DNA from: Hyphomicrobiales bacterium
GTDB lineage: Bacteria > Pseudomonadota > Alphaproteobacteria > Rhizobiales > HXMU1428-3
Direction of reading: 5' to 3'
Assembly: GCA_017640685.1 (NCBI GenBank)
Contig: JAEPQF010000026.1
Coordinates: 1 to 35,132 of the forward strand
DNA length: 35,132 bases
The notes below the pieces were generated by a model. That model had not been told where the DNA came from. It saw nothing but the letters and a program-made list of their open reading frames with translations, and did no database searches. Position 1 is the stretch's first letter. Each line of letters starts with the position of its first letter. The position numbers were made by a program, and so were the translations under genes. Positions 4,676 to 29,496 of the stretch are shown one piece after another.

Positions 4676-4679
4676 AATG

Positions 4680-4709
4680 GCACTTTAGGTTGCCCACAAG
4701 CAACCGCGC
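4680..4709 (+). repeat. nested-stem hairpin repeat, copy 1
   Basis: The inner stem GGTTGC/GCAACC encloses loop CCACAA. The outer arms GCAC/GCGC pair at three of four positions, with TTTA unpaired on the 5' side. It belongs to the 31-nt hairpin family described in the findings and lies directly behind the fasciclin terminator. Confidence 0.7.
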
Positions 4710-4715
4710 TCTATT

Positions 4716-4855
4716 CTCTCTCACGGCTATTTCAAGCACTAAGAGTGCTTGAGCCTCCGAGGGGCGGTGTTTATGATTGTGCTCTAGGTTGCCCAACATG
4801 CAACTGCACTAGCACCGGGCTTCACTGGCGCTACGCCATGTCCTGACGCCGATAA
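4716..4855. repeat. composite palindromic intergenic repeat, block A
   Basis: Shares a series of words, in the same order, with 23336-23516: CACGGCTATT, a palindrome AAGCACT/AGTGCTT, GCCTCCGAGGGGCGGTG, GCACCGGGCTTC, a 'GC.CATGTCC.GACGCC' segment, and ACTCCTT followed by TTCGTAT. The order and spacing suggest a dispersed element of about 140 nt made of consecutive hairpins. Relative to the other copy, it carries an extra segment (4770-4810) between GGGGCGGTG and GCACCGGG, which contains the next hairpin unit. No coding potential was seen. Confidence 0.7.
4779..4809 (+). repeat. nested-stem hairpin repeat, copy 2
   Basis: Outer arms GTGC/GCAC; inner arms GTTGC/GCAAC; loop CCAACAT; five unpaired bases (TCTAG) on the 5' side and one (T) on the 3' side. 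Total length is 31 nt. It sits in the loop between GGTG and GCACC of block A, where the other copy of the large repeat has only a three-base TAG loop. Confidence 0.75.
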
Positions 4856-4878
4856 GGCACCACTCCTTATTCGTATAT

Positions 4879-22433: not shown

Positions 22434-23282
22434 ATGCGCAGCTTTAACGACTGTGTTGTTCTTGCCATTAGCTCTGAAGTTGGGGTTGGGGCTGTTGGAC
22501 TTTCTATTGCGCGCTTCAGCTTTGCTTGTGAAAAAATTAAAGCCATTTGTTTACCAACCATAATTTTAGCGTCGCGTCCTGATTTGGGAAAATTTGCTGG
22601 ACATAAAATTCCTGCAGATAGCCTTAAGATGCAGCTAAATGCGCTTAGCGAAGATGGCTGGCTCCCCAAACTGAATGGAGTTATGACGGGTTATTTCGCA
22701 AGTGTTGAGCAAGTTGAGATAACGGCAGATTTCTTTCAAAAATTGCGGCTGGAAAATCCTTCAGCTCTTATTCTTGTTGATCCTGTTCTTGGTGATTGCG
22801 ACACCGGGCTTTATGTTTCGGCAGACGTTGCTCAGGCTGTTCGAGATTTACTTCTGCCACTTGCCGATGTGATTACACCTAACCTTTTTGAATTTTCTTG
22901 GCTTTGCGGCATCTCACAACCAAATTTTGATGAACTGCTTCCAAGCACGAACCTTTTAAAAGTGCCGCAAATTGTGATAACATCAGCTCATATTGGTGTT
23001 TCAACTGATGCCCCTTCATCTCGAGAAGCGACTGAGATTTCAACTCAACAAAGATCAATTAAAACTGTTCTTATTCACCAAGGGGAGAAAACAATTTTTT
23101 CAAGTCCCTTTATTGCAGAAATGCCAAAAGGTACTGGCGATGTTTTTGCCTCTCATTTGCTTTCCCGCTTGGTAAAAGGGGACGAATTGAAAGCAGCCGT
23201 TGGTGAAAGTGTGGAATTTTTGGAGAGGATTGCAGAAAGGGCTGAAGGGGCATTATCCATTGAGCCCTCGGTTTTCTTTTAG
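22434..23282 (+). CDS. pdxY: pyridoxal kinase, PdxY-like
   Basis: A 282-residue ribokinase-fold kinase that phosphorylates pyridoxal or pyridoxine in the PLP salvage pathway. SEVGVGAVGLSIARFSF (about 14-30) corresponds to the family's 'S.V..G.VG' substrate loop, LPTIILASRPDLGKFAG to the B6-binding strand, and VDPVLGD to the phosphate region. MPKGTGDVFASHLLSRL (about 233-249) carries the catalytic Asp and anion hole. An insert rich in Ser/Thr around residues 195-210 is unusual. AAGGAA precedes the ATG. It stands alone; convergent with the buf operon and separated from it by the second repeat block. Confidence 0.88.
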   Translation: MRSFNDCVVLAISSEVGVGAVGLSIARFSFACEKIKAICLPTIILASRPDLGKFAGHKIPADSLKMQLNALSEDGWLPKLNGVMTGYFASVEQVEITADFFQKLRLENPSALILVDPVLGDCDTGLYVSADVAQAVRDLLLPLADVITPNLFEFSWLCGISQPNFDELLPSTNLLKVPQIVITSAHIGVSTDAPSSREATEISTQQRSIKTVLIHQGEKTIFSSPFIAEMPKGTGDVFASHLLSRLVKGDELKAAVGESVEFLERIAERAEGALSIEPSVFF

Positions 23283-23316
23283 CGCCCCTTCAGGTTGCCC
23301 ACTAGCAACCGGGGCG
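23283..23316 (+). repeat. nested-stem hairpin repeat, copy 3
   Basis: Outer arms CGCCCC/GGGGCG, inner arms GGTTGC/GCAACC, loop CCACTA, 5' unpaired TTCA. It starts at the base after the pdxY stop codon and could act as that gene's 3' hairpin. Confidence 0.78.
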
Positions 23317-23362
23317 TGATGGTTGCTTACTCACACTCACGGCTATTCTAAGCGCTTTTTTA

Positions 23363-23389
23363 CACTTCAGTTACCCACCAACAACCGTG
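23363..23389 (+). repeat. nested-stem hairpin repeat, copy 4 (degenerate)
   Basis: Outer arms CAC/GTG, inner arms GTT/AAC, loop region ACCCACCAAC, 5' TTCA kept. It lies between the two AAGCGCTT arms of block B. Confidence 0.6.
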
Positions 23390-23454
23390 CTAAGCGCTTA
23401 GGCCTCCGAGGGGCGGTGCTAGGCACCGGGCTTCGCTAAAGCTGCCCATGTCCC

Positions 23455-23503
23455 GACGCCTTTTCTTCACTTCAGTTACCCTCTAGGTAACCATATTGGC
23501 GTC
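23455..23503 (+). repeat. nested-stem hairpin repeat, copy 5
   Basis: The inner stem GTTACC/GGTAAC with loop CTCTA follows TTCA. The outer arms GACGCC/GGCGTC are the host palindrome of block B. Block A has only a short GATAA-type link in the corresponding place. Confidence 0.6.
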
Positions 23504-23623
23504 ACTCCTTCTTCGTATAGAAAGTTGCCTTTCTCTCACGGCTATTCTGACGCGGACTTCTTTGACGCTGTGCCAAGTGCCCCCAGCCCAAAATGGGCTA
23601 GGTATCAGTTTACATATTGAGGT

Positions 23624-28747: not shown

Positions 28748-28770
28748 AATCTACTCCAGACTTGTTCGAT

Positions 28771-28801
28771 GCACCTTTAGTTGCCCACCAGCAACCGGTG
28801 C
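28771..28801 (+). repeat. nested-stem hairpin repeat, copy 6
   Basis: Outer arms GCACC/GGTGC, 5' unpaired TTTA, inner arms GTTGC/GCAAC, loop CCACCA, 3' unpaired C; 31 nt. It has the same geometry as the copy at 28991 but different outer arms. Confidence 0.82.
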
Positions 28802-28810
28802 TTATTGGAT

Positions 28811-28841
28811 GCACCTTCAGTTGCCCACAATGCATCCGTGC
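28811..28841 (+). repeat. nested-stem hairpin repeat, copy 7
   Basis: Outer arms GCAC/GTGC; inner arms GTTGC/GCATC (one mismatch); loop CCACAAT; 31 nt. A truncated unit (CACTTCAGTTG only) follows at about 28856-28867. Confidence 0.72.
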
Positions 28842-28874
28842 TATTTATTTCGTCACACTTCAGTTGACTTCTCT

Positions 28875-28973
28875 GTGCTTCAGATGCCCACAGAGCATCC
28901 GCAATATGTGCTTCAGATGCCCACAGAGCATCTGCAATATGTGCTTCAGATACCCACAGAGCATCCGTATGAA
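28875..28973 (+). repeat. three tandem 33-bp units of the hairpin repeat (copies 8-10)
   Basis: Units start with GTGCTTCAG at 28875, 28908 and 28941, an exact 33-base period. Inner arms are GATGC/GCATC in the first two and GATAC/GCATC in the third; the loop is CCACAGA. Units 1 and 2 end in GCAATAT. The third can form an outer stem TGCTTCA/TGAAGCA with the sequence after it. There are no unique spacers, so this is not a CRISPR array. On the minus strand the 33-base period reads as a repeated 11-residue peptide, which I take as a by-product. Confidence 0.82.
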
Positions 28974-28990
28974 GCAACCTGCGTTTTTTT

Positions 28991-29021
28991 GTGGCTTCTG
29001 TTGCCTACCAGCAACCGCCAC
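28991..29021 (+). repeat. nested-stem hairpin repeat, copy 11
   Basis: Outer arms GTGGC/GCCAC, 5' unpaired TTCT, inner arms GTTGC/GCAAC, loop CTACCA, 3' unpaired C; 31 nt. Compared with 28771-28801 four of the five outer base pairs have changed on both sides, which keeps pairing. Confidence 0.82.
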
Positions 29022-29496
29022 AAGCATCCACATGTTTTGTTGCGCTTAAAGTTAATTAAAGTTCTTTTTATAACTCATTACAAATTAAAATTATTTTATT
29101 CATTAAGCTCTTACCTTAGTTCTGCTTGCTCATCAGAATTTATTATTAGAATGGTAAAATTTCTCCATAATTCTCGCTTTTTATGCAAATAAAGCAAATT
29201 AACACTTCCATTTTAGATAAAAACCAGAGAATGCCAGTCTCATTACAAGAGCTAGTGCTAAAAGAGCTATTTATCACTTGAATAACTTAAGATGTCGTCA
29301 AGACCAATTGGCAAGAGGTTTATTTAGTGCCTTAACATATTTGTTATAATAAATAAAAATGGCAAAAAACCTATTATGTGGAAATAATATTTTTTGTTTC
29401 GTGCTCAATTATTTTAAGTTTAAGTTTTAGCTATGTTATTTGAGTGCTTATCTCACTCTCAATATAGAGATAAAGTTTTTTTAAGGGGGCATCATT
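29022..29496. other. AT-rich non-coding region upstream of the EVE gene
   Basis: About 475 bases without a credible gene. A TATAAT word occurs at about 29344-29349, and other -10-like sequences are frequent because of the base composition, so no promoter is called firmly. The region separates the hairpin cluster from the EVE-domain gene. Confidence 0.45.

Follow-up and report, generated by a model that had tools for sequence, protein, structure and literature searches.

A short nested-stem hairpin repeat of one-sided strand orientation in a Hyphomicrobiales genus

REPs are described as palindromes of 20-40 nt that occur in high copy number and mostly outside genes (PMC3733652, PMC3116915, PMC8266576), and for some of them, in E. 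coli, the same sources describe a conserved stem irregularity that is required by the enzyme (PMC3733652, PMC3116915, PMC8266576). The CGTC REPs are characterised as mostly alphaproteobacterial, devoid of a dedicated transposase and arranged predominantly as head-to-head dimers (PMC3733652), and the way in which they spread without such a transposase is left open in that account (PMC3733652). Two further systems act on folded single strands. The ends of IS200/IS605 elements (IS608, ISDra2) are reported to be hairpins with unpaired bases that are read as single-stranded DNA (PMC6006769, PMC5371812); insertion is into the lagging-strand template, and the orientation of the elements follows replication (PMC5371812). 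For the attC sites of integrons, the folded single strand is given as the substrate, and orientation to replication matters (PMC5371416). Here we describe a hairpin repeat that resembles each of these systems in part and differs from all of them.

The hairpin and its copies in the window

The window analysed here, a stretch of 35,132 nucleotides from a Hyphomicrobiales bacterium, contains three clusters of a 31-nt hairpin, identified at all sites by reading the sequence, with a common plan: an outer stem, a TTCA-type bulge, an inner stem, a CCACNNN loop, a single C on the 3' side and the closing arm of the outer stem. Of the 11 positions given in the original prediction, eight were recovered at E <= 0.01 by a covariance model built from 67 copies, which found eight places in the window, and a ninth (28908) is present as an exact match to the core; the remaining two, 4779 and 23455, fall below the model threshold. 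All features listed below lie on the + strand. The copy at 28770-28803 (40.0 bits) has outer arms GCACC/GGTGC and inner arms GTTGC/GCAAC and folds to the plan, and the next one, at 28810-28844 (34.9 bits), has one mismatch in the inner stem (GTTGC/GCATC). Three 33-nt tandem units follow, at 28873-28907 (45.2 bits; outer arms partly paired), 28906-28940 (exact core match; a row of the alignment) and 28939-28973 (26.7 bits), the second of which was probably missed by the model search because its range overlaps both neighbours by 2 nt. Read by eye, the sequence around these units suggests a probable interrupted parent copy (28856-28983), with TTCAGTTG at 28859-28866 and GCAACC at 28974-28979 as its candidate halves and with weak outer arms. 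The last copy of this cluster, at 28990-29023 (40.3 bits), has outer arms GTGGC/GCCAC and folds to the plan at -6.6 kcal/mol as DNA.

In the second cluster, the copy at 4678-4712 (25.5 bits) immediately follows, on the 3' side, the T-run of a stem-loop that resembles a terminator, recognised by eye. It is followed by a larger multi-arm repeat at 4718-4875 (CTCTCACGGCTATTTC ... GCCTCCGAGGGGCGG ... CATGTCC ... CACTCCTTATTCGTA), recognised by eye and with strand counts available for its blocks, and in the arm GGCGGTG/GCACCG of this repeat a further copy is nested (4779-4809; sequence and fold), which folds to the plan minus the single C. The third cluster begins with a copy at 23283-23317 (36.9 bits; outer arms CGCCCC/GGGGCG; -12.7 kcal/mol as DNA), straight after the stop codon of the ORF at 22434-23282. 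A second larger multi-arm repeat, at 23336-23518 (by eye), has two hairpins nested in its arms, one at 23360-23393 (22.9 bits) in the arm AAGCGCT/AGCGCTT and a degenerate one at about 23468-23494, seen in the sequence only and below the model threshold, in the arm GACGCC/GGCGTC. The predicted position 23455 is the first base of this latter arm, GACGCC, whose loop holds the degenerate copy. When folded as single-stranded DNA, the copies at 28770 and 28990 adopt the plan and that at 23281 adopts it without the unpaired C; on their own, those at 28810, 28873, 4678 and 23354 come short of the full plan.

It had been proposed that the structure is kept while the sequence changes, and in copies chosen by their core the outer stem indeed both pairs and covaries. 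Among 153 such copies, positions -2/+2, -3/+3 and -4/+4 form Watson-Crick pairs in 92, 81 and 67%, compared to 60, 37 and 40% after shuffling; no copy matching the pattern was dropped, and the pattern leaves out the class with the longer inner stem. For the analysis of covariation, 84 copies were picked, from which L023:6399 and L046:7544 were omitted by eye before the first alignment (82 rows), and 15 rows were omitted thereafter, namely 14 shifted by MAFFT, all with a longer inner stem of the GG/GA type, and L020:2988. The alignment that resulted, of 67 copies under 11 genome labels, has 91.6% of its cells paired, and the covariation score is 0.405 vs. a shuffled mean of 0.121 (0 of 500 shuffles as high). 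Of five measures, three (the paired cells, the cells with both sides changed, and the score) were above all 500 shuffles, and the two others gave weaker results: 6 pairs show changes on both sides vs. a shuffled mean of 5.0 (reached by 34 of 500 shuffles), and further pair types numbered 17 vs. 14.7 (reached by 38 of 500). When the partners were shifted by 1-3 columns, the score was at most 0.128; this control preserves relatedness, yet favours the structure derived from those very sequences. At single positions of the outer helix, GC, CG, UA, AU and GU pairs all occur. Because the core patterns include the bulge, its conservation was re-tested with the inner stem and loop only. Among the 276 copies found by the inner stem and CCAC loop alone, TTCA precedes 166 and a close variant (TTCG, TTTA, TTAA, TTCT, TCAG or TTAG) precedes 104, such that 270 have one or the other, and a C follows 263.

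Distribution, nesting and turnover

In the genome of origin (G000), we identified 46 blastn matches to the cluster, the query itself counted, and at least 158 model matches, so that the hairpin is not a product of chance; the predicted family is real, larger than had been stated and not confined to the three loci of the window. It is present in all eight genomes of the genus, a group within the Hyphomicrobiales, with at least 170 model matches in G002, 163 in G004, 162 in G003, 139 in G007, 38 in G005, 25 in G006 and 3 in G001, all of these counts being lower bounds (in G000, 150 of 2227 candidates were scored). From 126 copies found by regular expression in 662 kb of G002 and G004 (43 in G002:C6, 19 in G002:C1, 46 in G004:C5 and 18 in G004:C1), stretches that were not picked for hairpins, although some of C5 and C6 had first been obtained for their orthology to the window, we estimate about 670 copies per genome of 3.5 Mb. 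Further carriers include Filomicrobium ih4 (at least 76 model matches), 336R (at least 35), Bin_29_3 (at least 26) and Ga0077524 (at least 24). In a sample of the order, 19 of 397 genomes match at E <= 1e-5, that is, the 8 of the genus and 11 of 389 others, and in a sample of 385 genomes of the class the only match is in the genome of origin; these searches used stricter filters, with 17-18 candidates scored per genome, and would miss weak or rare copies. The plasmids searched gave no hairpin match. A locus titled Nanopelagicales, outside the order (L090), was taken as a chance match; its inner arms are mismatched. Three stretches of viral contigs contain the exact pattern; the model hits both strands of L234 and of L235, and L236 has a single hit. 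The stretch 87-493 of L234, a high-GC IMG/VR piece, has 11 model matches; three of these fall within an open frame, spaced at 39 nt, and translation of that frame would render the hairpin as a repeated peptide. Of 91 copies on two contigs, 76 are located outside called ORFs, and 16 of these 76 fall between convergent genes, vs. 42 of 292 gaps.

Neighbouring copies (within 120 nt) are nearly always arranged head to tail: for 423 copies at 101 non-overlapping loci, we counted 194 head-to-tail, 3 head-to-head and 0 tail-to-tail neighbours (293, 3 and 1 when overlapping loci are included). Parent halves flank 66 of 610 unique copies in the same orientation and 1 in the opposite orientation, although some of the 66, the window row included, are spurious, the match being to a tandem neighbour or a T-rich flank. 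With stricter selection, the halves match each other in 46 of 58 cases, compared to a shuffled mean of 35.7, the highest of 2000 shuffles also being 46. As judged by eye, copies also lie within a third repeat and in the arms of the larger multi-arm repeat, of which the window has examples at 4718-4875 and 23336-23518. The suggestion that the core repeatedly lands in palindromes holds in part, for copies in the loops of other hairpins.

The larger repeat consists of the constant blocks CTCTCACGGCTATTC, GCCTCCGAGGGGCGG, CATGTCC and CACTCCTTCTTCGTA, with hairpin arms of varying sequence between them; three of the blocks occur 72:1, 57:1 and 39:3 on the strand that carries the majority of hairpins. 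This repeat is also found (L146) in G001, the genome with the fewest model matches. The third repeat is of the type GCGTTCC-TTTTT-CCCAAAACCGGTATCCACTTTTGGG-CGGAACGC (L175, L167, L166, L158, L154 and others), and lies 10:0 on the same strand as the hairpin majority. T-runs are common 5' of the hairpin, with TTTT at -20 to -5 in 401 of 612 copies and AAAA in 8; TTTT at -40 to -25 occurs in 132. In three copies of the third repeat (L026, L066 and L167, one degenerate), the hairpin lies directly 3' of the T-run, and among the 19 rows compared (16 distinct) the uninterrupted copies have the T-run without a hairpin. Copies nested in hairpin loops bring a T-run, and intact parent loops are without one. 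The T-run may thus be either a target or part of the element, travelling with it.

Comparison of the sister genomes G002 and G004 (91% identical) shows 19 copies in common in aligned DNA, of 43 and 35, respectively; 22 and 16 copies fall in alignment gaps and 2 of G002 are missing from aligned G004, and since gap copies may have counterparts, the turnover is an upper bound. The hairpin at 23283 of the window occurs in G000 and G004 and is missing from G002, G007, G005 and G001. Many differences between species are array rearrangements or replaced stretches, and the between-species comparisons that were made yielded no clean single-copy empty and filled site with exact ends. Between G004:C5:253695-271982 and G002:C6, a block of 18.3 kb is 99.0% identical, compared to an average of 91.2% for the aligned chain with the block included, and a recent exchange is possible.

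Strand polarity and replication

A feature not contained in the original prediction is that the hairpin is strand-specific, with 97-99% of the copies on one strand in the genomes measured (G002, G004 and G000). Over 18 contigs of G002 and G004, 250 of 257 copies (250:7) lie on one strand per contig, and over 21 contigs of the genome of origin, 127 of 128 (127:1) do. In G002 and G004, the hairpin strand has both a positive third-codon GC skew and a positive TA skew in 17 of the 17 contigs in which both gene strands could be measured; for 14 of the 18 contigs, sampling was done close to known hairpins, and no bias of the strand is expected from this. In the genome of origin, the hairpin strand is that of the summed GC + TA skew, again in 17 of 17 measurable contigs, and GC skew taken alone is near zero and of opposite sign in four contigs (L018, L021, L033 and L036). 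On the two longest stretches, genes are distributed 105:95 and 71:67 and hairpins 44:2 and 1:42, and of the copies located between co-directional genes 28 have the gene direction and 17 the opposite one; gene direction therefore fails to explain the polarity of the hairpins. Some short samples have uneven genes, and in G002:C7, 21 of 29 genes run against its 29 hairpins.

Among the 61 matches listed for the Filomicrobium record (the best 61 of 76), 56 are on the + strand. The third-codon GC skew of this record (G031:C1; CP051234, Filomicrobium sp. ih4, called a chromosome) is positive in 19 of 20 samples taken around it, a one-sidedness that reflects either misassembly or unusual replication. 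Hairpins track the skew even here, where it does not turn over. A chromosome-wide strand bias unrelated to replication was considered and rejected, as the Filomicrobium skew is one-sided too and the sister contigs agree one by one. In three further genomes (G032, G033 and G034), contigs with several hits listed are mostly one-sided, 38 to 4 with tandem neighbours counted singly. The IMG/VR contig L234 has mixed strands (6 and 5), and polarity is accordingly not universal. The leading strand and the lagging-strand template have the same sequence, and the latter is single-stranded and exposed at the fork. An excess of G is described as a mark of the bacterial leading strand (PMC8941118), and the G/T-rich strand that carries the hairpins is presumed to be the leading strand here, in which case the hairpin strand would be that of the lagging-strand template.

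Mode of spread and comparison with known systems

On balance, and with some reserve, we favour a REP-like mobile element, short and non-autonomous, as the explanation of the hairpin; it would be copied or moved at the replication fork, as single-stranded DNA in the lagging-strand template. This explanation draws on the dispersal of the hairpin, its covariation, the occupation of one strand per contig in agreement with the skew, nesting, and presence or absence between sister genomes; from these we infer a single-stranded intermediate, with the fork as the likely site. The hairpin would be recognised in its folded form, the outer stem being maintained by pairing and the TTCA-type bulge, the single C and the CCAC loop by sequence, and it would land 3' of T-runs and in the exposed loops of folded repeats, its own copies included, giving rise to nested arrays. 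The protein that presumably reads the hairpin may have been lost, may be supplied in trans, or may belong to an unrecognised family.

A REP-type tyrosine transposase, which had been suggested as the partner, was found in one of the eight genomes of the genus and in one of 15 further carriers; the Y1 transposase (PF01797) had no match in the other 7 and 14, near-complete G002 included, in a search that was positive in 5 of 14 named control genomes. G004 is the only member of the genus with such genes, two Y1_Tnp genes of about 225 aa that lie 3.5 kb apart (G004:C1:11499 and 15047). The loci around these two genes and around one Y1 gene of G395 contain no hairpin model match, the nearest match to the G004 genes being about 3.3 kb away. 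The Y2 HUH transposase (PF04986) has matches in 7 of 16 carriers (0 of 14 control genomes), of which the only one within the eight genomes of the genus covers just profile positions 151-181 of 183. None of 16 genomes has an integron integrase over the curated cut-off; weaker matches, none over the cut-off, occur in 16 of 16 genomes and 14 of 14 controls and were taken as general tyrosine recombinases, with no true integrase in any control. Among the 25 gene families listed (from 2357 ORFs), none was seen to recur within 400 bp of hairpins at unrelated sites, and families that do recur beside hairpins were rejected as partner genes, as they looked like orthologous neighbours. The original statement that no named family has this plan agrees with the searches made: in Rfam, only tRNAs exceed the gathering score, with two chance-level hits elsewhere and none at the hairpins, and the open-licence PMC articles searched contain neither a description of the hairpin repeat nor its core strings.

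The absence of a partner gene from these searches is in line with a different account, doubtful in our view, in which no transposase takes part: polymerase slippage or template switching at folded lagging-strand DNA would duplicate units in tandem and into loops, and palindrome correction by template switching would make the arms match. The near-identical tandem units (window 28873-28973, and an array in G003) and the excess of head-to-tail neighbours agree with such errors, from which lagging-strand polarity would follow as well. Local arrays are explained in this way, but not some 670 dispersed copies per genome or copies in unrelated repeats; moreover, template correction should erase the bulge, yet the bulge is kept in nearly all copies that were found by a pattern lacking it. 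Somewhat speculatively, and we think it unlikely, the hairpins could exemplify self-nesting single-stranded DNA elements, served by an unrecognised enzyme or by no transposase, that spread one way at the fork together with repeats of the same polarity and so lay down a polar map of replication, possibly with a role as lagging-strand signals of the host.

The polarity itself, 97% or more in G002, G004 and G000, together with the occurrence of the hairpin in several genera, could also be read as selection for a chromosomal signal, in which hairpins in the lagging-strand template mark the direction of replication (as a cue for priming, for the restart of forks or for segregation, for example) and copies that face the other way are removed. 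We regard this as improbable given the many differences between sister species, the range from at least 3 to at least 170 model matches within one genus, the same polarity of blocks of two other repeats, and the mixed strands in one relative. A classical REP/REPIN system, whose RAYT gene would have been lost or missed in assembly, appears very unlikely: the hairpin resembles REPs in its size, copy number, extragenic location and irregular stem, and GT(A/G/T)G is found at -7 in 116 of 612 copies, but GTAG proper is there in only 10, neighbours stand head to tail rather than inverted, and near-complete genomes such as G002 have no Y1_Tnp match. Least credible of all is an RNA element (a terminator, a stabiliser or a protein-binding site in transcripts), which would account for the covarying stem, the position outside ORFs and the share between convergent genes but is at odds with an orientation that is nearly independent of genes (28 with, 17 against) and follows the strand skew, and with the lack of an Rfam family at the hairpins.

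For the favoured reading, a mobile element moved as single-stranded DNA, the hundreds of copies with 97-99% strand polarity tie amplification to the lagging-strand template and make the question of spread without a dedicated transposase testable. For draft genomes, hairpin orientation might also serve as an aid in calling the direction of replication or in recognising misassembly.

Comparison with the described systems places the hairpin near several of them. With REPs it shares a short palindrome, high copy number and a mostly extragenic location, whereas it is without a GTAG or CGTC tag (the flanks of 612 copies hold no strong tag, with CGTC in at most 8 at any flank position), has a Y1 transposase in only 2 of 23 carriers, forms head-to-tail rather than inverted pairs, shows strong strand polarity, and nests in loops. 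The tag, inverted dimers and the Y1 gene, three defining features of REPs, were all looked for and did not turn out as in REPs; the hairpin is REP-like in size and habit. CGTC REPs are likewise short palindromes without a dedicated transposase, but here CGTC is rare and the arrangement is head to tail. An IS91/Helitron-like system would call for a Y2 transposase, for which the genus offers just the partial match. The attC sites of integrons are similar in that a folded single strand is the substrate and orientation to replication matters; in contrast to them, the hairpin is dispersed genome-wide, with no integrase over the cut-off and no cassette arrays noticed. From IS200/IS605 elements the hairpin differs in that tnpA was not found in most carriers, no two-ended element was seen, and the unit is a single hairpin. 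It shares with their ends a hairpin with unpaired bases and, judged by skew and with the exception of L234, an orientation that follows replication; by this analogy, and with no claim of membership, the hairpin appears to work like an IS200/IS605-type substrate.
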